IMG/VR virus record: IMGVR_UViG_3300006654_000138
Location: 1 to 57,370 of that record
Source of the DNA: a virus
Direction: 5' to 3' (one strand)
DNA: 57,370 nt
Below are positions 28,316 to 53,365 of this stretch, one piece after another. The position numbers were made by a program, and so were the translations under genes. The notes beneath the pieces are model-generated. The model was not told the DNA's origin and ran no database searches. It saw only the letters and a list, made by a program, of their open reading frames with translations. Numbering within the stretch: position 1 is the first letter of the stretch; every line of letters begins with the position of its first letter.

Positions 28316-28498
28316 ATGAGCATCACAGTTTCAAAATCGGGAGCCCACCCGGGCTTTGATCACTGCTGTTTCAAGGCATCCAATGGGCACCTAAACGGCT
28401 TTGGCAAAACAGAACAAGCGGCTATTGACGCATTGCAAGAGCGCATCAGCCGCCTTGGCTGGAAAGGCGACCATGACTTAACGGTTAAACCAGACTAG
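28316..28498 (+). CDS. Small hypothetical protein (60 aa)
   Basis: ATG 28316 has AGGAG upstream. The 60-residue sequence (CCFKASNGHLNGFGKTEQAA, IDALQERISRLGW) looks like a small single domain with a beta hairpin and a helix, a type frequent in early phage operons. No function is recognised. Confidence 0.6.
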   Translation: MSITVSKSGAHPGFDHCCFKASNGHLNGFGKTEQAAIDALQERISRLGWKGDHDLTVKPD

Positions 28499-28521
28499 CG
28501 GCTAATCAACAGGAGGTGGGT

Positions 28522-28731
28522 ATGGCAGCAGCAGATTATTACCTTTGCGATAAATGCAGCAGAAAAGCGTTTTACGACGCAAACCTGAATTACGACTTCG
28601 ATAGAGGCACAGCAAAAGACGGCAGCTTCAAGCTTGATTATGTGGGTGATATGGCAGTGCTGTGCGATGACTGCGCAGAAGGCTACGAAGTGGTCATTCA
28701 GCCCAAGAGCAAGCCGAGTTCCGCTGCGTAG
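28522..28731 (+). CDS. Small zinc-ribbon-like protein (69 aa)
   Basis: ATG 28522 with AGGAGG upstream. Two Cys pairs, CDKC near residue 9 and CDDC near residue 52, frame a beta-rich middle and make a zinc ribbon likely. The role is unknown; small zinc proteins of this kind often modulate host enzymes early in infection. Confidence 0.65.
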   Translation: MAAADYYLCDKCSRKAFYDANLNYDFDRGTAKDGSFKLDYVGDMAVLCDDCAEGYEVVIQPKSKPSSAA

Positions 28732-28774
28732 TGCGGGGAATAGCGCCGCCCTTGGCGCTGAGAATACCAAGGGC

Positions 28775-28886
28775 CATCGGGATGGAGTATCCAAAACATG
28801 CAGGCGGTTAGCACTGCCATAAGCAGACCATAAAGGAGAGGGTAGCGCCCTAATTGCTGGTGTGGTTGCCAGCCTCCATCCCGATG
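28775..28886 (+). other. Structured non-coding interval with 13-bp inverted repeat
   Basis: CATCGGGATGGAG at 28775-28787 and its exact reverse complement at 28874-28886 enclose about 86 bp with further pairing potential. The interval 28732-28991 has no credible gene. It shares short blocks with 29199-29320 in the same order: GGAATAGCGC (28737, 29211), GCAGGCGG (28800, 29287) and GCGCC(C)TAATT (28845, 29296). Confidence 0.5.
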
Positions 28887-28923
28887 CTAATACCGGCATC
28901 GTCCGGCGCATCACACTGGCATT

Positions 28924-28948
28924 GCCCGGCACCCCGTCGGGCTTTTTT
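28924..28948 (+). terminator. Intrinsic terminator in early right operon
   Basis: GCCCGGC-ACCCC-GTCGGGC (one G-U pair) followed by six T. Confidence 0.8.
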
Positions 28949-28991
28949 ACCCCAGTTGTAAAGCAATCCTTTACACCTCGATGGAGCGCCT

Positions 28992-29198
28992 ATGTACACC
29001 GACAAGAAAGGCCACGTTTACGAAAGCGACACTGATCTAGACAGCGCAATCTTGTGGTTAGAGCAAGATGCGGCTTATTTGCGCGCTCAGATTGAGAAGT
29101 ACAACGACCGCGCGGTTAAGCAAGCAGTGGCCGATAACGCTAAGCACAGCGCTGAGTATGCCGACCACCTGCGCAGCCTGCGCTCAACCGTCAAGTAA
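28992..29198 (+). CDS. Small helical hypothetical protein (68 aa)
   Basis: ATG 28992 with GGAG upstream. A short beta start (YTDKKGHVYESDTDLDSAIL) leads to a long charged helix. It follows a terminator and the structured interval 28775-28886. No family is recognised. Confidence 0.6.
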   Translation: MYTDKKGHVYESDTDLDSAILWLEQDAAYLRAQIEKYNDRAVKQAVADNAKHSAEYADHLRSLRSTVK

Positions 29199-29320
29199 TC
29201 CTTACCAGTTGGAATAGCGCTGCATCGACGTTATTCCCGCGCTGCTTGGCTCCCCTTCCACTGGCACTGCGAGGGGCGCAGATACAGCAGGCGGCGCGCC
29301 TAATTCTATGAGAGGTGTTT

Positions 29321-29896
29321 ATGAAAATAATCGCAATGGTAATGATGAATGGGCGGTGGGCGTATGTTTTCGATAAGCGGCCAGTTTTTATTCATCGCGA
29401 ACAAGTTATCGATGGTAAGCGTTTCATGGTTGGAGTATGCGGGCCTTTCCGTACCTTTCTGCAGTATCAAAAATCTGGCCCTAATTTTAAGGCGTTCGCT
29501 GGTCGAGAAATGACCGTACGCATGGCTAACGGGGAAGACCGGAAACTAAGAGACGACTGGTGGGATTGCGCAGACCCTGAATCAAAAACAGTGAGCATTG
29601 CCTACAACAGCATTGATCAGCTTAAAGAGTGCTACGTGTTTTATGGCGGCTACGTTGATGCGGAAGCGCTGCAGAAATATGTAGATGAATACGAAACCCG
29701 GATTGATAGCGACAACATTTGGAAGCATGCCGACGGCGGCTATCGCTACCGATACCGAGAGTTTGACGACCTAATCAATATGCCCCGCAGGCTATCCCGC
29801 GAGCTAAACGAAAATCTAAAGCTGCATCGAGATAAGCAGGCGCTCATAAAAGAAGTAAAGCGCCTCTCGGCTTTGGTTAAGGAGCCTGCCGTATGA
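29321..29896 (+). CDS. Hypothetical protein (191 aa)
   Basis: ATG 29321 has AGAGG five bases upstream; GTG 29315 is less likely. The first 70 residues are beta-like with aromatic residues (NGRWAYVFDKRPVFIHREQV), the middle has DDWWDCADPESKTVSIAYNS, and the last 60 are a charged helix (LNENLKLHRDKQALIKEVKR). No catalytic motif is clear. It is expressed early in the PR operon. Function unknown. Confidence 0.65.
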   Translation: MKIIAMVMMNGRWAYVFDKRPVFIHREQVIDGKRFMVGVCGPFRTFLQYQKSGPNFKAFAGREMTVRMANGEDRKLRDDWWDCADPESKTVSIAYNSIDQLKECYVFYGGYVDAEALQKYVDEYETRIDSDNIWKHADGGYRYRYREFDDLINMPRRLSRELNENLKLHRDKQALIKEVKRLSALVKEPAV

Positions 29897-29997
29897 CTAC
29901 ACGGTACCTACTCCGCGAACAGCGCGGAAACATCATTACGCCGAGACCTGATAAAGGTCTTTTTTTTGGGCCTGCGTTTAGCGAAAGCAGCGGCTAA
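29893..29997 (+). CDS. Micro-ORF overlapping a terminator (34 aa)
   Basis: ATG 29893 overlaps the stop of the preceding gene (ATGA). The 34 codons (TTRYLLREQRGNIITPRPDK, then GLFFGPAFSESSG) run straight through an intrinsic terminator hairpin and its T tract. Translation of this frame could melt the terminator. It may instead be a chance frame; evidence is limited to the coupling and the open frame. Confidence 0.35.
   Translation: MTTRYLLREQRGNIITPRPDKGLFFGPAFSESSG
29944..29967 (+). terminator. Intrinsic terminator in early right operon
   Basis: AGACCT-GATAA-AGGTCT followed by eight T. It lies inside the 34-codon frame that is coupled to the upstream gene. A second hairpin (TCCGCG...CGCGGA, 29912-29928) precedes it. 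Confidence 0.75.
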
Positions 29998-30039
29998 GCG
30001 CCTTGGCTACCCGCCCCAGTTAATCAATAAGGTGACGCG

Positions 30040-30288
30040 ATGAAATGGAATAAAGCGAGCGAATCAACGCCTAACCAGGGCGAGCGCGTACTGCTGGCGA
30101 TCGCTTACGAAGAGTGCCCGGTAGTTGGTTACTGGGGCGAAGGTGAATACGAAGCCTGCACCGTAAATATGGATGTTGACTGCTGTGCATTCTGTTACGG
30201 CGGCATGGTTGATCGAGCTTTTAAAAGCAGTGACGTGACCCACTGGATGCAAATACCGGAGGTTCCCAATGAACAAGAAAACGCTTAG
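30040..30288 (+). CDS. DUF551-like protein
   Basis: The 82-residue protein begins WNKASESTPNQGERVLLAIA and ends VTHWMQIPEVP, the frame pattern of DUF551, a short family common in early regions of temperate phages. Function unknown. The 3' end overlaps the next gene by 20 nt. Confidence 0.85.
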   Translation: MKWNKASESTPNQGERVLLAIAYEECPVVGYWGEGEYEACTVNMDVDCCAFCYGGMVDRAFKSSDVTHWMQIPEVPNEQENA

Positions 30289-30502
30289 CGCAATCGCGCT
30301 GATGTTTTTGGGCCTGAGCATGGTGCTAGCGGCCAATCTTGGCGCGGCTGACAAAGAGAGCCTGCACCGGACGTATTGCGCTGAGGTAGCCGTCTGGGCT
30401 GCTGAGGAAGCGCGAGGCGTTGAGCCATTGGACCGTGTTGGTCACCCCGATTATCGCGGCATTGCTGCCGAGATTTGCCCAGGTCTACGTCCTGCTGATT
30501 AA
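30269..30502 (+). CDS. Small exported or membrane-anchored protein (77 aa)
   Basis: An N-terminal signal-like segment (NKKTLSAIALMFLGLSMVLA, residues 2-21, with AANLGAAD after it) precedes a soluble part with two Cys residues (CAEVAVWAAEEAR; ICPGL). This suggests export to the periplasm or an inner-membrane anchor. The coding start ATG 30269 lies inside the DUF551-like gene. Role unknown. Confidence 0.65.
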   Translation: MNKKTLSAIALMFLGLSMVLAANLGAADKESLHRTYCAEVAVWAAEEARGVEPLDRVGHPDYRGIAAEICPGLRPAD

Positions 30503-30940: not shown

Positions 30941-31009
30941 AAAGCCCACTCCTGCGCGAACAGGTAGCGGGCCGGATCGACGTCTGAAGAAGATCATCAA
31001 GGAGTTTAT

Positions 31010-31873
31010 ATGAGCAATGCAGTAGCAGCAACACAATGGGCTGAGCAATACCCCATGCTGGCCCAGCGTGGCATCGACGAATCAACGTGGAACGCCCTTT
31101 GCTCCACGCTGTACCCAGGCGCCCGCACTGACTCGATCATCATGGCGATTGATTACTGCCGCGCCCGCCAGCTCGACATTATGTTGAAGCCGGTTCACTT
31201 GGTGCCCATGCAGGTCAAAGACGCCCAAAGCGGCAAGAAGGATTGGCGCGACGTGCCGATGCCGGGCATTGGCCTTTACCGCATCCAGGCGGATCGCTCC
31301 GGCAACTACGCCGGCGCCGACGAGCCGGAGTTCGGCCCCACCGTTGAGCGAGAGTTTCAGGGGCAGGACTTCAACAAGAACCCCATCACGGTGAAGGTGG
31401 CTTACCCCGAGTGGTGCAAGTACACCGTCTACAAGATCGTGTCGGGCATGCGCGTTGCCTACACCTCAAAAGAGTATTGGATTGAGAACTACGCCACGGC
31501 AGGAGCTTCTTCCGAAGCACCTAACGCGATGTGGAAGAAGCGGCCCTTTGGGCAACTAGCCAAGTGTGCAGAAGCCCAAGCGCTGCGCAAGGCATGGCCT
31601 GAGATTGGCTCGGAGCCAACCGCCGAAGAAATGGAAGGTAAGCATTTCGCCCATGCCGAGAAAGACATTACCCCGCAAGCCCAGCCTCAACCCCAGGCGC
31701 TACCGCACTACCCGGCAGAGTCTTTTGAAAGCAACTTCCCGAAGTGGCAAGGCCTGATCGAGGCGGGCAAGAAAACGCCAGAGCAGATCATCTCGATGGT
31801 CAGCAGCAAGGCTGAGCTAACCGAAGAGCAGAAAGCCGCAATCCGCAATGTGGCGAGCGAGGAGGCAGCATGA
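31010..31873 (+). CDS. bet: Recombination protein Bet (RecT/Red-beta family)
   Basis: The 287-residue protein shows the RecT/Bet core: ALCSTLYPGARTDSIIMAID, YCRARQLDIMLKPVHLVPMQ, GLYRIQADRSGNYAG and KRPFGQLAKCAEAQALRKAW with a conserved WPE ending. It anneals single strands produced by the partner exonuclease. Residues 215-287 are a Pro/Gln linker and a helical tail. It forms a recombination cassette with the YqaJ-like nuclease, now split by an HNH gene. Confidence 0.93.
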   Translation: MSNAVAATQWAEQYPMLAQRGIDESTWNALCSTLYPGARTDSIIMAIDYCRARQLDIMLKPVHLVPMQVKDAQSGKKDWRDVPMPGIGLYRIQADRSGNYAGADEPEFGPTVEREFQGQDFNKNPITVKVAYPEWCKYTVYKIVSGMRVAYTSKEYWIENYATAGASSEAPNAMWKKRPFGQLAKCAEAQALRKAWPEIGSEPTAEEMEGKHFAHAEKDITPQAQPQPQALPHYPAESFESNFPKWQGLIEAGKKTPEQIISMVSSKAELTEEQKAAIRNVASEEAA

Positions 31874-32439
31874 GTAAAGCCAGCCCTCCTTTGATAGAGG
31901 TATTAGATGCCGCTGTTTTTCTGGATGCAGAAAAAGGCCTCCTCTACTGGAAAGAGCGGGAAGCGTCAGCTTTTTCTAGCGGCAGGCATTCAGCTAAGCA
32001 AGAAGCTGCTAGATGGAACTGTCGCCATGCTGGAAAGCCTGCTTTCAATAGCATTTCCAGCAGCGGTTATTTTCATGGCCCGTTTTTAGGCAAATGGCTA
32101 AAAGCTCATCGGGTGGTTTTTGCTTTGTATTACGGCAGATGGCCGGAGCTTTGGCTGGATCATATCAATCACGTCAGAACTGACAACCGCCCGCAAAATT
32201 TGCGTGAAGTTGATGAAAACGGGAATGCCAAAAACGCATCAATCAGATCGGACAACACTAGCGGGCACCCAGGCATAACCTTTGAAAAAAGAAGCGGAAA
32301 GTTTGTATCTCGAATATCTCATAAAGGGAAAAGGATTTTTTTAGGCAGAAGCGATAGCTACATAGAAGCGCTGCATTTAAGGCTAAGCGCTGAAGCTCGC
32401 ATGGGTTACCACCAGAATCACGGAGGCACTTCGCCATGA
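31870..32439 (+). CDS. HNH/AP2 homing endonuclease between bet and exonuclease
   Basis: The 189-residue protein has the HNH core LKAHRVVFALYYGRWPELWL, then DHINHVRTDNRPQNLREVDE (about residues 77-118), and a C-terminal AP2-like DNA-binding beta sheet (GHPGITFEKRSGKFVSRISH). It overlaps bet by ATGA at its start and the exonuclease by ATGA at its end, so it sits in the operon without disturbing either gene. AT content is higher than in bet and exo, a sign of transfer. Confidence 0.88.
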   Translation: MSKASPPLIEVLDAAVFLDAEKGLLYWKEREASAFSSGRHSAKQEAARWNCRHAGKPAFNSISSSGYFHGPFLGKWLKAHRVVFALYYGRWPELWLDHINHVRTDNRPQNLREVDENGNAKNASIRSDNTSGHPGITFEKRSGKFVSRISHKGKRIFLGRSDSYIEALHLRLSAEARMGYHQNHGGTSP

Positions 32440-34106
32440 AAGTTATTGAAAACATGATTCAAGGTACGGAAGAGTGGCGCTTCTTGCGCGCTCAACGCTT
32501 TACAGCAAGCGAAGCCGCTGCCGTCTTCGGGCAGCACAAGTACATGAGCCGAAATGATCTTTTAAAACTCAAGCATACGGGTGTTCAGCCGGAGGTTAGT
32601 CAAGCGCAGCAACGAATATTTGACGCTGGGCACAAGGCTGAAGCAGAGGCTCGAGTCATCGCTGAAGAAATCATCGGAAGTGAGCTATACCCATGCACGG
32701 TAGAGGATGATAGCCAGACATATCTAGCGTCAATGGATGGCCTGGAAATCATGGGAGAAGTTGGATTCGAGCATAAATTGGCTTCCGTATCGCTGATCCA
32801 GCAAGTTGAGGCCAAAGACCTAGAAGATCATTACAAGTGGCAAATGGATCATCAGATGATGGTTTCGGGCGCAGAGCGAATACTATTTGTCGCTTCTGAT
32901 GGCACTCGCGACCGGTTTGCTCACATGTGGTACGAGCGAGACGAAGATAGGATAAAGCAACTAATCGCAGGCTGGGCGCAATTCAAGGCCGACCTGGAAG
33001 CCTTTCAGCCCCAAGAACAGAAAGTGGCACCGCAAGGCGAGGCGCCGGACAAGCTGCCCGCGCTCAGCATTCAAATGACCGGCGGCGTGCAGGCGTCGAA
33101 CTTGCCGTACTTCAAAGCCAAAGCGCTGGCGATGATCGACAGCATCAAGACGGAGATGGTCACCGACAAGGACTTTGCCGACGCCGAGAGCACCGTCAAA
33201 TTCCTGCAGAAAGGCGAGAAGCAGCTGGAGGAAAGCAAGCAGCGCGCCCTTGAGCAAACCGCCAGCATTGCGGAGCTGTTCGATACCATCGATGAGCTGC
33301 GCGAAACGATGCGGCAAAAGCGCTTGTACCTGAACAAGCTGGTGAAAGCCGAGAAGGAAAACCGGCGCATCGAGATTCAGCGCAATGCGGCTGCAGCGTT
33401 TGATGCCTTTCTTGCCAAGCTGGAGTGCCCAATCGTGCCCGCGCACAGCCTGGATATTGTAGGCGCGATGAAGGGAAAAAAGACCATCGCCACCCTGCAA
33501 GCTGCCGCCGATGACGAGGTAGCCCGCGCCAAGATCGAATGCCAGCAGCTTGCTAATGAGATCAACGGCAATAAGGCCCTACTAAATGCCGAGCAAGGTG
33601 ACTACGCCTTTCTGTTCAGCGATTGGCGCGAACTGATCCAGAAGCAGCGCGATGACCTGCAGGCGGTGATTACGTCACGCATCGCACAGCACAAAGCCGC
33701 CGAGCAAGCCAAGTTTGACGAAGAGCGCGAACGCATCCGGCAGGAGGAAGCCGCCAAAGCGCAGCGCGAAGTGGAGAAGCAGAAGCGCGAAGCGGCAGAG
33801 GCCGAAGCCAAACGCCAAGCCGAGGAAGCCGAGGAAGCCGAGAAGCGCAAACCTGAACCGCAACCAGAGCCGGAACCTATGCCCGCCGCTGCCGAGCATA
33901 AGCCGTTGGACACCAGCCGCCTAAGCGCCGCCGCTGATAACTTCCAACGCGGCAGCCAGGTGAAAGCACCGGAGCAGGTGACCATTAGCCGGAAAGAGTA
34001 CGACCGGTTGCTAGAAGCCGAGGCCAAGCTATTAGCCCTGCAAGCCGCAGGCGTGGATAACTGGTCAGGGTATCCCGAAGCCATGGCCCAACTGAACGCA
34101 GCCTAG
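32436..34106 (+). CDS. YqaJ-like recombination exonuclease with coiled-coil extension
   Basis: Residues 1-190 carry the YqaJ/lambda-exonuclease fold: IQGTEEWRFLRAQRFTASEA, an acidic site around DAGHKAEAEARVIAEEI and MDGLEIMGEVGFEHKLASV, then HYKWQMDHQMMVSGAE. Such nucleases chew one strand for Bet annealing. The remaining 360 residues form a long coiled-coil region (about 215-430) and a very Glu/Lys/Arg-rich helix, resembling DUF1351-type proteins normally encoded separately, so this may be a fusion. 556 aa is far longer than the bare nuclease. Confidence 0.88.
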   Translation: MKVIENMIQGTEEWRFLRAQRFTASEAAAVFGQHKYMSRNDLLKLKHTGVQPEVSQAQQRIFDAGHKAEAEARVIAEEIIGSELYPCTVEDDSQTYLASMDGLEIMGEVGFEHKLASVSLIQQVEAKDLEDHYKWQMDHQMMVSGAERILFVASDGTRDRFAHMWYERDEDRIKQLIAGWAQFKADLEAFQPQEQKVAPQGEAPDKLPALSIQMTGGVQASNLPYFKAKALAMIDSIKTEMVTDKDFADAESTVKFLQKGEKQLEESKQRALEQTASIAELFDTIDELRETMRQKRLYLNKLVKAEKENRRIEIQRNAAAAFDAFLAKLECPIVPAHSLDIVGAMKGKKTIATLQAAADDEVARAKIECQQLANEINGNKALLNAEQGDYAFLFSDWRELIQKQRDDLQAVITSRIAQHKAAEQAKFDEERERIRQEEAAKAQREVEKQKREAAEAEAKRQAEEAEEAEKRKPEPQPEPEPMPAAAEHKPLDTSRLSAAADNFQRGSQVKAPEQVTISRKEYDRLLEAEAKLLALQAAGVDNWSGYPEAMAQLNAA

Positions 34107-39082: not shown

Positions 39083-39415
39083 ATGGGCGAAATGCTAATG
39101 AGCCGTGATGAAGCGGCTAAAGAATTGTCGTGCCACCCCGCCACCATTTCCAAGTGGGTGAATAGCGGCACGCTGCCAGGGCTAAAGATCGGCGGCAAAA
39201 CCTACGTCAACAAGCAAGCACTCAAAGCGATGATTGCCGGAGATGCAGCGGTCAGCCACACTACCGATGCACCCGGCGCGATAACGGGAGGTAAGCCATG
39301 CCGTATAAGCGCCCAGACTCACCGTTCTGGTGGGTCTACCTATCCCCGCCGGGAGGCGGCGAGCCAATTAGACGCTCTACTCGGACGACCGACAAGCAAG
39401 CGGCTGAAGCGCTAG
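39083..39415 (+). CDS. Excisionase-like MerR-family HTH protein
   Basis: The first 60 residues (SRDEAAKELSCHPATISKWV, then GLKIGGKTYVNKQALKAMI) form a winged helix-turn-helix of the MerR/excisionase kind. It lies directly before and overlaps the integrase gene by 118 nt, the common xis-int arrangement. It probably bends attachment DNA and sets the direction of recombination. The last 40 residues are read in the integrase overlap and may be of little importance. Confidence 0.75.
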   Translation: MGEMLMSRDEAAKELSCHPATISKWVNSGTLPGLKIGGKTYVNKQALKAMIAGDAAVSHTTDAPGAITGGKPCRISAQTHRSGGSTYPRREAASQLDALLGRPTSKRLKR

Positions 39416-40392
39416 AGGGGAAATGGAAGGCGCAACTTTACCGCCAGTCCTATTGGGACGAAGCCCCTGAACGCAGCTTTGCCGAAGTCGCCACCGAGTA
39501 CCTGCTGGCCAGTCAGGACAAGCGCTCATTGGCCGATATCAAGATGCGCACCGGCAAACTCTACGACTTCTTTGGTGCCGACAAAGTAATGGGCAAGCTG
39601 GAAGGCGCAGACGTTCGCGCCTTTATTGCCTTTCGGCAAAGTGAAGGCGTCGGGCCTGCCACCATAAACCGAGAGCTGGCGATACTCGCGGCCATGATCA
39701 CCCACGCGGTCACGCATTTAGAGTGGCCGCTACCCAACCCTGTGAAGGGCCGGATGCTGAAAGAGCCGCCTGGGCGCGTGCGCTGGATTACCCGCAAGGA
39801 AGCGGACACGCTGATCGAGAAAGCCAAAACCACCCGCGAAGGCGAGCGCTTGGCCGACTTCATCGAGCTAGCCCTGCACACCGGCGCACGCAAAGGCGAG
39901 CTATTAAAGCTTGAATGGCGGCGCGTGAATTGGGAACACGCACTGATAACCCTGGAGCCAGAAGATAGCAAAGCTGGTAAGCGCAGAACGATACCGCTCA
40001 ACGAGTCGGCCGTGGCCGCGCTCAAACGGCGGCACCGATACGCGCAAACCTACTGCCCTTCTTGCCCTTGGGTATTCTGCAAGCGTGACGGCAGCCGATA
40101 CGTCTACCCTAACCCGGTATTCAAAAAGGCGTGCGCGCTGGCGTGCATCAAAGACTTCACCATTCACGACTTGCGGCATACCTGCGCAAGCTGGCTGGTG
40201 TCGGAAGGCGTACCGCTGGCCGATGTAAAGGAAGTGTTGGGGCATTCCACCATCAACATGACCGAGCGTTATGCGCACCTAGCACCCCATCGAGCAAGGG
40301 ACGCGGTAGCCAAGCTGCAATCACGTTCTCATCACGTTAAAGAACCGGTTGATAATATCGAGGCATTGCTGGGGAGGAAAAAGAAAGCCTAG
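39298..40392 (+). CDS. int: Tyrosine integrase
   Basis: The 364-residue protein starts at ATG 39298 with GGGAGG upstream. It has an N-terminal arm-binding part, a core-binding domain (about residues 60-150) and the catalytic domain with Arg198 (HTGARKGELL), His290 and Arg293 (HDLRH), His316 (LGHST) and the nucleophile Tyr325 (MTERYAHL). It integrates the phage at the tRNA-Ser gene whose 3' end lies 43 bp downstream. Length and spacing are typical of phage integrases. Confidence 0.95.
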   Translation: MPYKRPDSPFWWVYLSPPGGGEPIRRSTRTTDKQAAEALEGKWKAQLYRQSYWDEAPERSFAEVATEYLLASQDKRSLADIKMRTGKLYDFFGADKVMGKLEGADVRAFIAFRQSEGVGPATINRELAILAAMITHAVTHLEWPLPNPVKGRMLKEPPGRVRWITRKEADTLIEKAKTTREGERLADFIELALHTGARKGELLKLEWRRVNWEHALITLEPEDSKAGKRRTIPLNESAVAALKRRHRYAQTYCPSCPWVFCKRDGSRYVYPNPVFKKACALACIKDFTIHDLRHTCASWLVSEGVPLADVKEVLGHSTINMTERYAHLAPHRARDAVAKLQSRSHHVKEPVDNIEALLGRKKKA

Positions 40393-40711: not shown

Positions 40712-40927
40712 ATGCCGCTTGGCGACCTACTCGGCATTGCCGTTACCTTACTTATGCTAGGCGGTTTAGTTATGACGCAACTAAACGGCGGCCTTGGTAT
40801 GTGGCTGGCCGTTAGCTGGGTTGGCATCCCTGCCTTCTTTTTGGTGGCTGGCCTGCTGGTCAACCACCATTCCCTCCTGTTTGGATTGGCTATCGCCATG
40901 GGCATCTATGCCTTTAGGCGTCGTTAG
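40712..40927 (+). CDS. Small membrane protein, possible moron (71 aa)
   Basis: From ATG 40712 (GGAGAG upstream) the protein has three hydrophobic segments (LLGIAVTLLMLGGLVM; MWLAVSWVGIPAFFLVAGLL; LLFGLAIAMGIYAF). It is encoded on the plus strand between attP and the end of the late operon, with its tail overlapping the polyvalent gene by 14 bp end-to-end. A lone gene at this place is often expressed in the lysogen. Superinfection exclusion or host modification is possible; no family is recognised. Confidence 0.65.
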   Translation: MPLGDLLGIAVTLLMLGGLVMTQLNGGLGMWLAVSWVGIPAFFLVAGLLVNHHSLLFGLAIAMGIYAFRRR

Positions 40928-43900
40928 CCAGCCGCTGTTGCTCTACCTCCCTTCCCAATACTTCAACAATGCGGTTGCGTACCGTGCGTAAGCGCTCAAG
41001 CTCGCGACGCTTATAGTCTGGATCCATCTCTGCACTTTGGCGTACTTGATCCATTCGCTTGTTAATGTCGGATAGATCGCCACGCGCGTCCTGCAGCTGT
41101 TTGCGCAAGCGAAGCAAGTCACCCTTGTTTTGCGCGAGCTCTCTCGCTTCCTCTATTGCCCCCATCTCTTCCATTTTCCGTAAGTCTGAATACACGCGGT
41201 CGGCTTCTTGCAGGCCTTTATAGAAAACATCCATGTAGCGCGTCGAGTAAGCAGGCGTCTCTAAGTCACGATAGAAACGACGGATAGGCCTTGATTCCGT
41301 CCAGCGTCTACTAGGTGCTTGCTGCCCATTCGCGCGACGCCAGAAAGTGTCGGCCATACCTGCCGCATAACCGCCAACGCTTCCCAAGTAACCATTCACT
41401 AGGTAGTCAATCTGCAGCGGCGAGAGGGCCAGCATGCTGTCATTGCCAACAGCGTTCTCAAGGCCGCCTGACAACCAGCGCGCTGGCATAGTGGTGCTAG
41501 ACCGGAAACGCAAGCTAGGCGATAACTTCTGATCAAAATACGGCTCAATAGGCCGATCACGGAAGGGGTCGCGGTTGGCGTAAATATCAAGCAAGGGCGC
41601 GGCTGCCTGCGGCACCGGACTAAAGCTAAACGTCTGGCTAATCATGTGCCATAACCGCTCCTTGAACAGGTCGCCGCCTGCAGTGTCGTCAATGAACTGC
41701 TGTGTGACGCGCTCCGCCATAGTAGAGATAGCGCCAACTTCAAACGGTTTAGGAATGAAGTAGGCATCATCACCGTTGCGAATGTACCAATAGGTGTCCT
41801 TCTGCCATTCTGGTAACGCCTGGTACTCCTCGTCATCGTTGTTTTGCATCAGCAGGCCAATAGACGCCACCATTAATGCACCGGTCACGATAGAGAAGCG
41901 CTTAGCGCGCACCTTGTCAGAGTCGCTCCCTTTGCCGAAGGTTGTTAGAAGCGTTGGTTTAAAGCCATCGCGGTACAGCTTATCGGTGCCCTGAATGCGT
42001 GCATTCAAGAACGGCACGGTATCAATGAGAAACCGAGTCATAAACCAACTGCCATGGCTGGAGAAGTCCATTAGGTCACGCGCCTGGAAGGCGGCGTATA
42101 GCTTCCCTTTGTCAAGGTTGGCTTGGTATACCTTGGCGCGGTTAATGTTCTCGGCAAACTCGGTGGCTTCATTCCAGCGACGCCATAAAAACTTACCAGC
42201 CTGCAGTGCGGCGGCTGGGTCGTTAATCACCTTGGCGCGGCGAAGGTTGCGGTTTAGCTGGGCTTTCAGTTCGTCGCTACGGTCGCCGTATAGGTGGCCG
42301 AAGTTAAAGGATCCACCGCTGGCAATCATTTGCGCGCGGTTGCGCTTGTTAGCGTAGTAACCGGCGCCGCGCACTGCGTTCCATAGTGGGTTCATACCTG
42401 CTGGCGTTACCGCCGCTGATTGCAGAGAATCGCGGATGGTATTCGCGGCCACAAACTCAGGCGTGACCGTGACCATGTTGGTAAGCAGGCGCTTAAACCA
42501 GCGCATGGCTTTCATGCCGGAGCTATCCATAACGGCTTTCATGCCTGCATCCGTCATGTTTACCAACGCCTTGTACACTAGGTCATCGCTGATCTCGTAG
42601 AACACTTGTTTGCCGTCGCGCAGAATGAACGTCGAAGATTTGGGGTCTCGGCTCGACTCGCTGACTTCGCCCGCTATGCCTACCGCCATCGCGTTCTCAA
42701 TGGCCTGCGTGGCCGCTTGGTTTTTCAGGGATGCCGACAGCAGATGGTGGTAATTCATCAGCGTGTTTTCCAGCAGGTCGCCAATACGCATATCAGCACC
42801 TTTAAGCCGCTGGTAGGCACGCTGCCGCGTCAGGCCTGCCGTGGAAGCTGGCCCTTGTATATCGTGGGTGTTCTCATCTAATACGCGATAGAACGGCACG
42901 TAAAACTCTTCCGCCCAAATCTCGCGTTGATCGCGGGTCAGCGACGCCCACTCCTGCATGATGTTGTCGTACTGCTGGTCTGGCGTGTTCAGTGCATCCG
43001 GCTGCACAGTGTCGTTGACGTAGGTGTCTAGCCACTGTTCAAGCTCTTGGCGCGCCTGCGCATATATAGCCTGGGCGTTGTCGAGCATGTCGCCGTCGGC
43101 ATCATTGCGCATGGAGACATCGGCACGCTTTAGCTGATTCACCAGTGCTTCCGGAGCGCCGTACTGGCGAGCGATCACGAGCGCGGCCTCTGGCTCGCTC
43201 ATCGCTTTGCGCAGCAAGCCAGACTGCTCGGCAATGCTCAGCACGTCGTCACGGATGGCTTGGAATTGCTCGAAGACTTTGGGATAAAGCGTGCGGCGCG
43301 CCTCACCATTTTTGGCGCGACCGTTATTCAGCTCCATCAAGCCGCGAATATGACGCTCTTCAAAATAGTTTTCACGACCTTGCTCCCGCAGCTTTTCAGC
43401 ACGGTTACCGGCGATCCAGCCCATAAAACGGCTTACCTCGGCAGCATCGCCAAGCTGGGCCAGCACTTCGTGCAAGCTGTTTTTCTCGCCCTCCTGTAGC
43501 TCAATGACCTTTTGCTCTGGGTTAAGGCGAATGCGTCCGCTATGAATCAGCGTATGCAACGCGCCCTGTGCTGCCGGAGCCATGCGCGCCAATATCCAAC
43601 TGGATGATGCCGTGCTGGATTCGATAAAGTCGCGACCTAGCGCTTTTTCATCCAGCTCTTTCAGGGCGGCGTACTTATCTACCAAGCCAGCGCGCAGCTT
43701 AACGGCGGCACGATCCCAAACTTCGCGCACCTTAGCCATGGCTGAGCCGGTCGCGCTAAGCGGGCCGATCATATCCAGTGCTTCGGCCTGGTCAGCATCG
43801 AGGTCTTTGAACTCGTCAGAGACACGACTTTGGTCAACACGACGACGCATAGCAAACGTCATATTGTCGGCATTGCCCTGGTCGGCTTCTGCCTGCAAGC

Positions 43901-46900
43901 GTCGCAAGTAGTCGCGTGACTTCTCGCCTAGCTCCAGCACATCAGTAGTCGTCCAAGGAATTGCGGGGAACGCGCGACGTAACAGCTCCTTTATTTTCGC
44001 AACGGCGCGCTGCCATGCCGCAGGCCGGTGCCCTTTCTCAATAAGGTTGGCAACCATCTCTTCGGCAATCGTGACTTGATCGTCAGGGTTGTTACGGTCA
44101 AGGAAGGGATAGTCACGCAGCACTTCATCACGCGCTTGGCGGCCAATCTTGCTGTGTGGCAAACGGTTGTAGAGCTGACGCATCACCGGCACCAACTCGT
44201 CTCCCAGCACGTCGCGCACGCCTTTATGGCCTACGGCTTCGTGAATGGCTGTCTTAACGGCTTGGTCTACGCTGTCGTTATTGGCCGCAATGACATACAG
44301 GCGGTTGCCTTCATAGAAGCCGCGAACATCAAGCGGGTTGACCCCATTTAGCGCCATTTTCAGCAGCGACATAGGCGGCAACTCAGTTGTATTCGCCACC
44401 ACCTCAAAGTCGCCCAGCTGTTCACTCATGCCCTCAAGCGCTGCCGCCACATCCTCAGCCGTCGGCGGTGCCTCTGGGCGGTCGGACTGAGGGTTAACGG
44501 AGTAACGCTGGTCTGATAATGAGCCGCTCGCGGCATCAATAAATGCTTGCCTCTGCCCGGCGCTCTCAAATTGGAACCCTGGGATGGCGCCGTCACGTTT
44601 ATAGCTGGACCAGTAACCGCCGTTCGCCTTGGCAATGTCGCGCAATGCGTTAAAGGTCTCGCGCTCAACACGACCATTCATCTTGGCCACAAACAGCTCA
44701 ATGCCTTTTTTGGCGTGCATGGTTTGCGCTGTCTCAAAGCTCACGCCTTGGCCCGACAAGTTTGCTGCCGCCGCGTCTACTTGCGCCTCTGTCGGTGGCT
44801 CTGGGCGGTCGCGGCCTATATCAACGCTTTCCATGCGGTCAAACAGGCTGTTGATAGAGTCGGCATTGCTCAAGTCAATTAAGCGGCTAGGTGCTCCACC
44901 CTCATCGTCAGCACGCTTATCTAAAACAACGATACGCGTGGCCACCTTAGTTGCGGCACGCTCAAAGGTGGAAGTTGGCAGCTTGATATCAGCCGCCATG
45001 CTGACTCCTTCCGTTTCCTCAAACCACTTGTCAAAGCGCTTATCGGCAGCAGGCCCCGTAGGGATCAACGCCACCACACGGCCGCCTTGGCGCAGGTGTG
45101 TCTTGAACGCGCGGTCCAGGTGCGCAATCGCCGTTGAGCCACCAAGCCCAAACGGCGGATTCATTACAATGCTGTCGTACTTGTTGGATTTCGCCAGGTC
45201 TTCAAACGTCGTCTCATAGACCTTGGCATCCCCCGCAGCTAGGCGAAGGCGAGACGCCAGCTCATAGGACGGCTCAACTAGGTGCGTCTGCGCTGTTTCG
45301 GGAATCCAGCGCGCAATCGCGCCATGGCCTGCGCTCGGTTCCAGAACATCATCACCGGCACGAATACCGGCCCACTCCACCATCTTGAGCCCCACCGGTT
45401 CAGGCGTCGCAAAGTAGTCCTTGCCTTCGCGGGATTTATTGCGAGCATTGCGCTTCTGCTGACCGTAGTAGAACGACCTAGCGCGGTCGAAGTCGGTCAT
45501 TTCTGCAGCGGTGCGATCAAGCTCTTTACCGCCAACCCCTTCACCCTCCATGCCTGCCGGGTAATTATCCGCGTCTTGATACGCTTCGATAATGTTGTCT
45601 TTCAGCGCGCGCGCCAGATTGCCCATGGCTAGGTTTTCAGCAGTACCAGCTCGCTCGGCCAACTTGCTGGCCACCATGGAGCGCTCCATGGAAAGGCCGG
45701 TGCTCATGTAGCGCATAATGGCGTCGGACTGAACGCCCACACGGTAGATACGCCCTTCGATCTGAATCGCCGCCGTCGGCTTCACCGGAAGGCCTAGGTT
45801 TAAAAGTACGCGCTGGTGTTTTCCAGCGGTGTCGTGAAGGGAAATGCCAGCACCGCCTGCGTCGGATTGCACCGCGATAACATCGACACCACTACCATCG
45901 CGATTAAACCGCTCTACGTTCTTGGCGCGCTCAGCCTTACCAATGGTGCCGTTAAACTCTACTAGCTTGTCGCCAAACGCCTTGCTTAGCGCATCGCGAG
46001 GCGAAGGCAAGCCGGAAAGGTCAAGGTTATAAAGGTCTGGTCGCTCCGCTTCGAGGCGCTTAAATATACTGGAATCCCCCTCGCCTGCCATCGGTCGGAA
46101 AGGGTGGAAGCCGCCGCCTTGATTGTAGTCGTGAAACACGACCACTTTGCGGCCTTGCTTTAGGTGCTGCTCAATGTAAGGAATCGCATGCTTAGCCTTG
46201 ATAGATTCCAGCAAGTAGGCACGATTGAGGTAGCTAAAGCGCTTGCTGATTCGCTCTGATAGTTCAGCCCATGCCGACGCTTCTGCCTGAGCGGCATCAT
46301 CGCCTTCACGCGCCTTGTCGCGCGCAGTGCGGGCACGATCCTGTAACCATTCAAGGCCTTCATCAATGCGGGTGCCGATACCGTCGGCCACCAGTTGGAA
46401 GCGGCGGTCATAGTCCTGATCCACTTCCAGCATTCGTGCGCGCATAGCGCCTTCACGCTTCAGCTTTTCATTAAACTCACGCTCCATCAGGCCAATGTCG
46501 ACCTCTGGCCCCGGCGCATTGAGCTTGTTGTAGCGCATCTGGTAGCCAAAGTTCTGCATGAAGAAGCTTTCGCGGGCATCGCCTTCGTTATAGCTGCGCA
46601 CACGGTCTTGCTCTGGCTGGCCTTCGGCATAATCAAACAAATAGCCGTTAGCCCACTCTACTGATTTGCGATAGGCAAACGGTGTCGCCGATAAGAAGGC
46701 AGCCCGCGTGTCGCGCGCTTCCCACTTACTCGCCTGAGTTTGTTCAATGTCTTTAGCTAGCTGGTCAAGCTCGTCGGCTACCTGCTTTCGCTCCTCCGAC
46801 AGCCGCGTCTCTCTATTGGCATCCTCACCTCGTCCACTATCAAGGGACTGTACGCGAGCGGCCTCTGCCTGCGATCTCAGTGTTTCTAGCCGTTCAACCA

Positions 46901-49900
46901 GGTCAGGCCGCTGCATTTCAGCTAAGCGCCGCGCCGAGCCAGGGTAGCCAGTGAGTGCGCGAAGCGTAGAAAGCGCTCCGGTTTCCTGGAACTCGTCACG
47001 CTGCAGCAGGTTGTGGGCTTCGTCGGCAATGATTAAATCCCACTCGCGCTCAGCCAGGCTATTGTTCTGCCTCATGTTGGCGTAAGTGGTGATAACAGCG
47101 CCCTCACCGCCATTGTCGCGGGTGTCGCGCAGCTGCTTAATACCTAGATCAACATTCTCGCCAGCCGTCATCCAGTCGCGCGCAATCTTATCACTAGGCA
47201 CCACAATCAAGATATTGGGGCGACCCATTAGTGCGTGACGCTTGGCAACGCCTAAGCCTGAGTAAGTCTTGCCGGTGCCGGTGCCGTTAGCGAATAGAAC
47301 GCCACGCCCGTTAGCTTCAAAAAAGCGGCGCTCAGCAAAAGCAACATCTTCTTGCTGAACCTTGAGAAGCTGCGGCAAGGTTTCGGCAATACTATCCAGT
47401 GACGCGGGTACCACATCATCTTGAGCAATCGCTGCGGGTGCAGCCTCACTTACCGCATCGACAGTCTTTTGAGCATGGCGTGTAACTGTTCGGCTTGCTC
47501 GGGCGTCAGTCGGTGCTCCTCCGTCATCACCATCACGGCTTCGTCCGCTGTCGTCACGTCCGGTAGGCTGCCCCGAAGCATCATACTGCCCGTTTCCTCG
47601 ATGAACGCGGTTATCGCTTCCTGCTCGGCCAGTACCGGTGCGATTTTCTGATAAGCGATTGCCACTGGATCGGGCACCCCGTGCGCTTCCAGTGCTTGGG
47701 CTTGATCCTCTAGAGCTTCGTTGAGCTCGTCCTGATCCATCGCGAACAGCTTCTCTGCCCACGTCGTTTTCAGCGGCTGAGACTCCAGTATCTGGTTCAG
47801 TACGCTGGCCGGTACTTGATACATCGGCGTCGCCCTCGTTGGTTAGTGTATTCAGCGCCTCACGCACCGCGCCGGGATCATCCATGCCGGTTACATCGAG
47901 GCCGCTATCTTCCATCATATCGCGGCCACCATTGTACCAAGCACGCAGGTAAGGACGTATTTGCTCTACGTTGGTACCGAGATCACGCGCCATGGTGCGC
48001 GCAAAGTCGGTAAAGCGCCGCGCACCGGCTTCCAGGTGGAAAGCTGCCAGCTCGGTACCTAAAGACAGCATTTCGGGGTCGATGCCGCTATTTAACTGCC
48101 CTAATTTCGCCCGCAAGCGTGCACGAATCTCTTCGGCTCGGTCGCGGCTAACCAGTGTATTGGTATCGCCCCAGGCGCTATCTTGTGATTGCGCTTCGCT
48201 GTCAGGCTCAGGCTGGCTCACCACCTGAGCAAGGGTTGCATTCGCGTTTCGATAAGCCCCCAGCCACTCCCCCTGACTAATAACGGTGGAGCTGCCGCTT
48301 TCCGTATTGGTGATATCCAGGCTGCCATCTTTTCCTATGGCGTTGACCCTGTAGCCGTTTCCAGTGCGTGCGTATCCCACGTCGCTACTCATGGTGATCG
48401 TGTCACCAGGCACGGCACCGCCGAAAGCTTCACTCGCTCGCTGCTGACGTGGGTTTAGCTTGGCAGGCTTTCGCGGCTTGCTTGCTTTGGGGGTGGTTGC
48501 TGGGGGCTCACTAGGCGGCTGCGCTGCTGGCTGTGCGCCAAAAATATCGTTCTGCCCACGCGACGCGGCAATATCAGCAGTACGGTTGCTGCCGCTTAAT
48601 ACAAAGTCGTCAGCATCGCGGTCTGCTTGGGCGCGCTGCGCTTCTTGGTTGCGCTGGTCGGCTTCGGTCTGTTCAGCGGCCTGAACTTCCTGCTCGCGTT
48701 GCGCAAGGCTTTCTTCTGTTTGGGTTTCGAGGGCCAGATCGGAGGTCTGTGAATCAACGGCTGTTTTTAGTGCATCAACGCTGGATTGAACGTTGATTTT
48801 TGAGTCAGGCTGATTGTTTGCTGACACCTGCTGTCCATCAAAGGCACTGTTCACCGCATCAATAAACGCCTGGCCGGTGCCGGTCGTGCCGGTCTTAGGG
48901 ATATCGTCACGACTGCGAATGTCACCAACCGTAGCATCTAGCTCTTGCGCTGCCTGGCGCAGCGCTGGGCTGCCGTAGTATTGCGATATATCAGCATCGC
49001 CCAGCTTGTTAATCCAGCCATCGCTACCAATGCCGGTGAATGGATACCACTGCCCAGGCTTGGTGGCTGCCTTGCCGCCGGCGCCAGTGCTTTGATAGAA
49101 CGGCACGGTAACGCCATTAACGTCTTTCAGCACAACGCGGCGACCGGAGTAATCAACGATAGGCGCCTGGCCGCTCATTTCCTCTGCCGTTTTGGTGCCC
49201 TTGTTCCAACGCTTGCCCCCATAAGGCAACGAGGTAAGGCCGCTAACATTCTGGCCTGCTGGCTTAGTGCTTTCTGCATTCTGCATAGGCGTGTCAGCCA
49301 CAGCAAAACCCCATCCACCCTCTACTTCAACGGGCTGGGCGTTAGGCGTGTCGCGGAAGCGCCTAGACAGTTCAACAGCGCGACGGGTTTGGAAAGGCGT
49401 GCCGTCAGTCTTTAGAGTTACCGCTGGTTCTGCTTGCGCTCCTGCTCCAGGGCGTGGGCGTTGTTCTCCTGAACGCGCTGTTCGTGCGTCGTTGCTTGCA
49501 GGTACTGGTTCACTTCTTCCAGCGTCTTGCCCTGCTTGATCAGCCTGTCCGCTGCTAGGTGCTGGTGTACGTCCTTCGCTCGCTGCTGGGCTGTTTGTGC
49601 CATTTAGTAATGCCTCTTTAAGTTCTCGCGTCACGCTGGCAAGTGTTTCGCCATCCTTCACACGGCGCGCGGCGTCGTTGATCTGCTGGTTAATTTCCGG
49701 CGTGGTCGTCGCCCGCTCTAGCAGTGCAATGGCGTCTGCCGAGGTTTCCTGTAGGGCGTTGTTGCGGTCCTTGGCAATGCGGTTGCCTGCCTGCTCAGCC
49801 GTTTTGGCGTTATCGTTCAGCGTAGCGAATAAGCGCTTGTCGCGCACCAGGGTTTGGCGAAGGCTATCCATTACCTTTACGCGCTCGCCAATAAGCGACT

Positions 49901-52121: not shown

Positions 52122-53365
52122 TAGCGCGCTCTCCAATTGTCCGGATTAGCGGGGTCGCCGCCTAAAAATTCATAACCGTCTTCTACGTGGCCGACTTGCG
52201 GAGCGCCTGGCTGAGTGTTTTCCGGCTGCTGGTCTGGCTGTTGTGCCGGCTGTTGATTGGCGGCTTGTTGGCCTCCAGGTCGGTCAAAGGCTTGGCGTGA
52301 GGCCACATCTAACTCCTGAGCTAATTGCTCACGGCGGGCAGATAGCTCTACGCGCGCTTCTTCTGATAAAGAGTACGAGTCCAGCTGTTCATCAACCCGG
52401 TCAAGCTCATCGCCAAGGAAGCTGATATAGCGGGTGTCCATTTGCGAGCTCTCACCAGCCCTGGCGCGCACCGCTTCGTAGGCTTCAGCAAAGGAGGAGT
52501 AAACGCCTCGCCCTACCAGTGCTTCGGCCTCTTGGATACGGCTTGGTGTGCTGCCACCACTGCCCCCTGCTTGAGGCGCACGCCCAATCACCTGCTTCGT
52601 TTCGCCAGTCACCGTATTACGCTGCAGGATAGAGCCGCCCGGCCCTTCAACTTGCTCCCAGCGCTCCTGCGAGTCACCACGCAGCAGGCTGAGCACCTGA
52701 GTCGCACGCTGCTGGGCTTCTGGCGTGCGCATGGTATTGCGTAGCAAACGCATGCCTTGCACTTGCTCCACCAGCTTCTCAACCGGCACATACTTCACCA
52801 AGTCGTCGTCTGCGGTGCCACGCCCTTCGGTCATCGGTGCGCGGTAGGTGTTGCCGTCATCACCCACGACTTCAAGCTCAAGCGCGACGCTTTGGCCGTC
52901 CGGGGCTGGGTACATAGCCACCACACGCTTTTGGCCACCCTCGCCACGGTTAATCTCGGCGCCAAACATCTGGTTGAGCGCTTCCAGGCTTTCGGGGTTA
53001 TTGGCATCCACTGGCGTATTGGGGTCAATGACTGCCATAGCTTGCTCGATAGAGGCATCGGTCTGCGGGTCGAGCGCGGCCCAAAACTTCGGGTACCGGC
53101 GCAGGGTTTCCAGCTCGTCTTCGGCGACGTCCATGCCGGAGCCGATCTTGCCGAGCGTGAACTGTATTTCTTCCATATCGCGCTGCCGCTGCACATCTTC
53201 TTGCTGGGCGCTGAACTGTTGCTTCTGCATGTCGAATTGCTCGGCTTGCATCGCATCCTGTTTTTCAGCGCGCTCGTTCTGGAATTGCTGTTGCTGATAC
53301 TGGTTCATCAGCCCAAAGCCTTGCGCAAAGCCGCTGGCCAAGCCGCGTGTATCGAGTCCTGACAT
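52121..53365 (-). CDS. Internal virion-like protein (414 aa)
   Basis: ATG 53365 begins a Gln-rich coiled-coil N-terminus (NQYQQQQFQNERAEKQDAMQ; residues 20-75), followed by a mixed domain (MYPAPDGQSVALELEVVGDD) and another coiled coil near residue 310. The C-terminus is Gln/Pro-rich. Its composition resembles internal core proteins of podoviruses that are ejected with the genome. Coupled to the giant gene by TAATG. The function is inferred from build and position. Confidence 0.7.
   Translation of the reverse strand: MSGLDTRGLASGFAQGFGLMNQYQQQQFQNERAEKQDAMQAEQFDMQKQQFSAQQEDVQRQRDMEEIQFTLGKIGSGMDVAEDELETLRRYPKFWAALDPQTDASIEQAMAVIDPNTPVDANNPESLEALNQMFGAEINRGEGGQKRVVAMYPAPDGQSVALELEVVGDDGNTYRAPMTEGRGTADDDLVKYVPVEKLVEQVQGMRLLRNTMRTPEAQQRATQVLSLLRGDSQERWEQVEGPGGSILQRNTVTGETKQVIGRAPQAGGSGGSTPSRIQEAEALVGRGVYSSFAEAYEAVRARAGESSQMDTRYISFLGDELDRVDEQLDSYSLSEEARVELSARREQLAQELDVASRQAFDRPGGQQAANQQPAQQPDQQPENTQPGAPQVGHVEDGYEFLGGDPANPDNWRAR

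Follow-up and report, generated by a model that had tools for sequence, protein, structure and literature searches.

The gene at positions 31870-32439 of the virus DNA analysed here is probably a free-standing HNH homing endonuclease gene that resides in the joint between the genes for a phage annealase and an exonuclease. This DNA, a 57,370-base IMG/VR virus record, is referred to below as the window, and related loci are designated by L numbers. Comparisons with these loci show that, in the window, the HNH gene and the adjoining nuclease half of the exonuclease gene are foreign together, as a single GC-poor block. Across the related loci, the joint is occupied by more than one HNH family.

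The annealase-HNH-exonuclease cassette

The window encodes a tyrosine integrase (39298-40392) and, therefore, it probably represents a temperate phage or a prophage. The cassette consists of three intact open reading frames on the + strand, namely a gene for a RecT-family single-strand annealing protein of 287 amino acids (31010-31873; Pfam PF03837, 5.7e-26; PHROG 2449, 3e-114), the gene for the HNH_3 homing-type endonuclease of 189 amino acids (PF13392, 2.3e-12; PHROG 99, 6e-50), and a gene for a YqaJ/RecE-like exonuclease of 556 amino acids (32436-34106; YqaJ PF09588, 1.9e-10; PHROG 7655). An earlier note on this DNA had named the outer genes 'bet' and 'exo'. These names are kept here for brevity, but RecT-family annealase and YqaJ/RecE-like exonuclease are the better descriptions, and by their Pfam and PHROG matches the two form a RecT/RecE-like recombination pair. 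The same note had described the HNH gene as overlapping both of its neighbours by ATGA and, indeed, both the bet/HNH and the HNH/exo joints read ATGA. The bet and exo frames are complete and uninterrupted, and the HNH gene is a gene of its own, located outside any intron or intein.

Translation of the HNH gene is probably coupled to that of bet upstream and that of exo downstream. A GGAGG inside bet (31861-31865, + strand) is the likely ribosome-binding site of the HNH gene; a G-rich stretch also precedes the exo start in joints lacking the HNH gene, and in these HNH-less relatives this spot would likely serve exo. A second GGAGG, in the 3' end of the HNH gene (32422-32426, + strand), is likely to be a ribosome-binding site for exo that is carried by the insert, and L097 and L133 have GGGAG in the corresponding position. 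The HNH gene supplies the overlaps at its start and at its stop as well as a GGAG-type stretch ahead of exo, so that the three frames stay open.

The exonuclease carries a C-terminal T7 gp5.9-like RecBCD-inhibitor domain (residues 514-550, about 33975-34085, + strand; PF25708, 1.8e-17), such that a single protein may both resect DNA and block the host RecBCD. A PHROG 6234 match is present in the exo of L003 and L083 as well, and in that of neither L133 nor L097. Further downstream, the - strand (40914-52136) encodes a large polyvalent protein in a frame of 3740 aa, which combines ResIII/helicase parts with a methyltransferase-like part and LPD38.

The HNH_3 domain spans residues 78-120 (32101-32229, + strand) and includes H80, D97, H98, N100, N106 and N110, all of which are invariant across the 11 aligned sequences, the window among them. 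It is followed by a presumed DNA-binding, AP2-like domain (residues 132-168; 32263-32373, + strand). The HNH part of the HNH/AP2 designation in the earlier note was thus borne out, whereas AP2 stays below the Pfam cut-off (14.5 bits against 33.3) and is seen as an AP2-like fold in the predicted structure. The respective scores of L097 (2.7e-05) and L133 (1.7e-07) are better, yet still below the cut-off. The structure model, built from an 11-row alignment, has a mean pLDDT of 85.2 and a pTM of 0.67. Foldseek returned no match to it at E≤0.001; the top six matches were all AP2 domains with probabilities of 0.97-1.00, but with E-values of 0.12-0.17. The profile of the HNH family matches PDB 1u3e ('HNH homing endonuclease') at 6e-07 over profile positions 51-123, which makes the likeness one of the HNH domain. 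We take PDB 1u3e to be I-HmuI. Among the best 40 of 2887 phage records, the highest identity to the window HNH protein was 42.9%.

The weaker AP2 score of the window protein compared to its relatives would fit a dead homing endonuclease, kept only since it is harmless to the operon. This we regard as improbable in view of the open frame, the conserved HNH residues and the fact that third codon positions change most. In pairwise comparisons of the three joint HNH genes (window, L097 and L133), 63-67% of the third codon positions differ, compared to 26-40% of the first and 19-32% of the second positions. This excess at third positions fits a constrained protein, and the data are consistent with joint HNH genes that are both old and constrained.

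The replaced block and mosaicism of the exonuclease gene

The HNH gene had been thought to be inserted precisely and by itself. This view did not withstand the comparison with HNH-less relatives. L003 has no HNH match and its bet is 94% identical to that of the window; BLAST similarity between the two ends at 31876 and resumes at 32967, and similarity to L083-L086 likewise resumes at 32961-32967. The replaced block (31877-32966, + strand) thus comprises nearly the whole HNH gene plus the foreign, GC-poor 5' part of exo (exo-N; 32436-32966, + strand), which encodes the YqaJ nuclease domain (about residues 1-177). The remainder of exo (exo-C; 32967-34106, + strand) is shared with the HNH-less relatives according to BLAST blocks and nucleotide identity. 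The identity of the window to L003 and L083-L086, all of which are HNH-less, is only 51-54% in the first 530 nt of exo, whereas it is 81-93% in the next 570 nt. The composition changes in parallel, with GC3 values of 72.5% for bet, 43.9% for the HNH gene, 49.7% for exo-N and 72.3% for exo-C. A lone precise insertion in the window was therefore rejected, as exo-N is foreign too. The possibility that exo-N is merely fast-evolving was also rejected, because the relatives are 75-98% identical among themselves (80-98% among L003, L083, L084 and L086, with L085 at 75-82% to these), while the window is distant from all five, and because the exo-N and exo-C trees disagree, with the window being placed with different relatives in each. 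The left edge of the block is blurred: identity to L003 is 93-98% over a 480-nt stretch of bet but drops to 75-85% in the following 180 nt, which end the gene. The nearest other exo-N sequences, those of the HNH-less loci L105 and L094, are 66% identical, and no close donor of the window exo-N, be it HNH-bearing or HNH-free, was found among the surveyed loci.

A tract of 2034 nt (30959-32992, + strand) that includes the block differs at only 2 positions from L002, with divergent sequence beyond both ends. However, the two records are also alike away from the HNH gene, with no difference over 28495-30461. As other blocks match equally closely, this tract is no specific sign of homing, and we do not claim that the HNH block has recently swept between the window and L002.

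The HNH-bearing locus L133 and the HNH-less locus L112 show the same pattern as the window. Immediately before the joint, the final 120 nt of their bet genes agree at 98%. In exo, 60-nt steps give identities of 48-75% over the first 540 nt, 68% in one further step and 72-98% from there to about 1,380 nt, with a further diverged stretch at about 1,400-1,590 nt. Here too, by nucleotide identity, the HNH gene and exo-N appear to have been replaced together. The L133 exo-N is nearest to that of L103 (85% at the amino acid level), an HNH-less locus, and GC content does not set the L133 block apart. Co-replacement is therefore seen in two lineages, and in a third, L130, the HNH gene is found alone. 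Compared to L225, which is from the same metagenome, L130 is 83-88% identical over the last 180 nt of bet and 33-52% further upstream. Because its exo is 68-95% identical to that of L225 from the first codons onwards, this pair represents a lone precise insertion. For L097, there was no HNH-less relative close enough for a block comparison among the surveyed loci.

It should be noted that exo-N is also exchanged between loci that lack the HNH gene altogether. L106 and L107 are 80-97% identical in bet up to the joint, 42-78% in exo-N and 80-100% in exo-C, and the swap runs from the joint to about codon 180 of exo, the same borders as those of the window block. Therefore, the HNH nuclease need not have caused such swaps, and the co-replacement can be explained by general mosaicism with the HNH gene as a passenger. 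On this explanation the nuclease half of exo is a commonly swapped module, bounded by the joint on one side and by the domain boundary on the other, and the HNH gene, homing or not, is carried along non-causally. We give this close to an even chance. It competes with co-conversion as the cause of the replaced block, not with the identity of the gene. Other HNH-less pairs, in which exo-N and exo-C are of different kin, the discordance of the two trees and the mosaicism of the whole neighbourhood agree with it. Against it stand the L130/L225 pair, in which the gene can be seen to move without exo-N, and the presence in the same joint of at least one unrelated HNH family (L102, see below) and probably of other HNH_3 lineages. 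In the exo-N tree, for which 4 near-copies were dropped to leave 52 of 56 rows and in which counts of the HNH label are uninformative, the window/L002, L097, L133 and L102 fall within one 20-row part and L130 lies outside.

The bet gene is itself mosaic. Compared to the window, L083, L133 and L097 have a core of differing type and a similar C-terminal third (from about residue 175); the conserved piece is the part next to exo.

Occupation of the joint

When viral contigs, phages, genome contigs and genomes were searched with bet, exo, exo-N and the HNH gene, 128 exo loci were obtained, which formed 89 clusters, or distinct joints, at 97% identity. A locus entered the survey if its exo-N matched at E≤1e-10; enterobacterial RecT loci, in which the exonuclease is only about 26% identical and the two genes are in some cases 199-285 nt apart, were not included. 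The HNH test was applied only to the reading frame preceding exo, and some of the upstream frames carry no identification. An HNH_3 gene directly precedes exo in 5 of the 89 joints (window/L002, L097, L133/L113, L130 and L228). In these five, the HNH_3 gene is preceded by an annealase-like gene, which for L228 means that the upstream DNA resembles the annealase genes of other loci. Joints without the gene include those of L003, L083, L085, L112 and L225. The earlier note had considered the case that all relatives carry the gene; what was found instead is a patchy presence. The comparison of the bet-exo joint that it had proposed for locating the target site did provide relatives, with the joint closed as ATGA, but not the site: the joint context (GGAG ... 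GCATGA) and the early part of exo are conserved, and nothing was seen there that separates cut from uncut alleles.

A sixth joint, that of L102, holds an HNH gene of another family (PHROG 374, 3.4e-67), so that at least one such joint is present among the 89. The gene is located at L102:5141-6004, its start not being settled, and its end overlaps exo by 7 nt. Outside the 89 joints, 16 further loci were obtained from 14 of 390 genomes of one order. An HNH gene was found only in the Marinobacterium genome of L097 itself and in none of the 15 others. Scans with the HNH alignment detected 1 locus in genome contigs and 1 in 369 genomes of the class, both from Marinobacterium, and a plasmid search gave 6 weak records. 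The host is shown for one joint lineage, namely Marinobacterium litorale for L097 (strain DSM 23545) and L145.

In a tree of 24 HNH proteins, those of the window, L097 and L133 form one clade (support 100/99), which stands apart from the HNH genes elsewhere and among these 24 is seen only at this joint. The HNH proteins of L130 and L228 are placed apart from this clade, and their branches are very long. The five joint HNH genes are united in none of the 200 bootstrap trees, and the best tree needs 3 changes. We do not claim independent origins for L130 and L228, because of these branch lengths and because the starred branches alone are compatible with a single origin. Still, besides the different HNH family of L102, other HNH_3 lineages probably hold the same joint too. 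Within the clade, the amino acid identities of the HNH proteins (55% for window-L097, 55% for window-L133 and 67% for L097-L133) parallel those of exo-N (58, 58 and 66%), and those of exo-C (58, 46 and 49%) track them less closely, although these are three pairs only. No recent HNH transfer between diverged members of the joint was caught.

Of 12 profile matches (E≤1e-3) in the 789,727 bases of the 89 loci, 5 fall in the joint. If the joint is assumed to represent 7% of this DNA, the binomial P is about 0.001; leaving out the window (4 of 11), it is 0.005, or 0.019 for an assumed share of 10%. As the profile was built partly from those joint genes, this enrichment is only suggestive.

The patchy occupation also bears on the idea that the HNH gene is a domesticated part of the operon that aids the phage, for example by processing DNA ends or by cutting the DNA of competitors or the host, and is kept for that purpose. 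An intact, constrained gene within one overlapping operon with the annealase and exonuclease genes would suit this idea. However, the joints of most relatives lack an HNH gene, L102 has a different HNH family in the same slot, and an active homing gene would be under constraint just as well, which makes domestication very unlikely in our view.

The placement of the gene, which the earlier note had called unusual, does not merit this term. The upstream frames, which were called mechanically, overlap the exo start by 4 nt in 61 of the 88 distinct joints that have such a frame, and 3 of these 61 overlaps are HNH-to-exo joints. The L130 HNH gene overlaps exo as TAATG, and that of L228 has the upstream overlap GTGA and a 9 nt gap before exo. 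HNH relatives at other loci (n=11) may be arranged similarly: an overlap with, or direct contact to, the start or stop codons of long neighbouring frames is clearest for L137, L164, L165 and L154, and is absent for L155, L160 and L163. Free-standing endonuclease genes of T4, as discussed below, overlap upstream genes too.

Possible co-conversion and comparison with known systems

How could the HNH gene and exo-N have come in together, if the homing reading that we favour for the gene is right? In a mixed infection, the enzyme would cut or nick the DNA of an HNH-less phage in or close to the joint, with the 5' part of exo as the probable site. The HNH-bearing genome would then serve as the template for repair, which the annealase and exonuclease of the phage itself may carry out, and the repair tract would stop where donor and recipient are similar again, on the left near the end of bet and on the right at the boundary of the nuclease domain. 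With an end at this domain boundary, a cut-resistant nuclease half of exo would be carried along, as in the intronless homing with co-conversion of phage T4. This co-conversion step is proposed tentatively, as a serious possibility that falls short of probable. A wider reading would make the joint a recurrent homing site of unrelated HNH enzymes (the window clade, L130, L228 and L102), each cutting the conserved nuclease half of exo, with repeated rounds of homing, co-conversion and loss as the main engine that shuffles the exo nuclease domain, the HNH-less swaps included. We consider this rather unlikely; if true, a parasite gene would ride on, and remodel, the very enzymes that repair its cut.

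Free-standing endonucleases with distant cut sites and co-conversion tracts have been described for phage T4 (PMC2988022). The T4 HNH gene mobE is located between nrdA and nrdB, its start overlaps the nrdA stop as UAAUGA, it has no promoter of its own, and translational coupling has been suggested; five free-standing endonuclease frames of T4 overlap upstream frames (PMC2988022). The window gene is like mobE in being an HNH gene between two genes of a single operon that overlaps the upstream stop (PMC2988022). It differs by overlapping at both ends, and the likeness is one of gene arrangement. SegF of T4, encoded between soc and 56, targets 56, and SegG, encoded between 32 and 59, targets 32 (PMC2988022). 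These intergenic endonucleases, whose targets are the neighbouring genes, resemble the present case in position. However, they belong to the GIY-YIG type (segF is drawn in both colours in PMC2988022), and their activity has been shown there, whereas the evidence here is comparative only. The gene for I-HmuI lies within a group I intron (PMC2988022), in contrast to the free-standing window gene with its AP2-like end.

Barth, Dunham and Seed (2023) proposed that homing endonuclease genes mark the boundaries of, or drive, genetic exchange between phages (PMC10448857). As in their study, free-standing genes lie beside essential genes, and several classes of them occur in one locus (PMC10448857). 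Their survey differs in dealing with T5orf172 and IPA-HNH genes, found in the vicinity of genes for terminase, ribonucleotide reductase, structural proteins and the replisome, and the term 'exonuclease' has 0 occurrences in that text (PMC10448857). In lactococcal phages, NUMOD1/HNH_3/NUMOD4 homing nucleases likewise adjoin the annealase module (PMC8093625). However, they are located upstream of duf1071-ssb and not within an annealase-exonuclease joint (PMC8093625). Our literature search returned no title or abstract opening describing an HNH gene in the latter position.

Taken against these systems, the window HNH gene adds one more example to a known kind of phage parasite gene, as an ordinary element in an instructive place. 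Judging from its arrangement, placement that is both precise and coupled may well be common in this HNH gene family and no curiosity. One small operon provides a natural set of alleles, comprising a joint without the gene, a lone insert, and an insert with a swapped exo half, and this set allows a test of whether the mosaic domains of phage recombination enzymes are the work of homing endonucleases.
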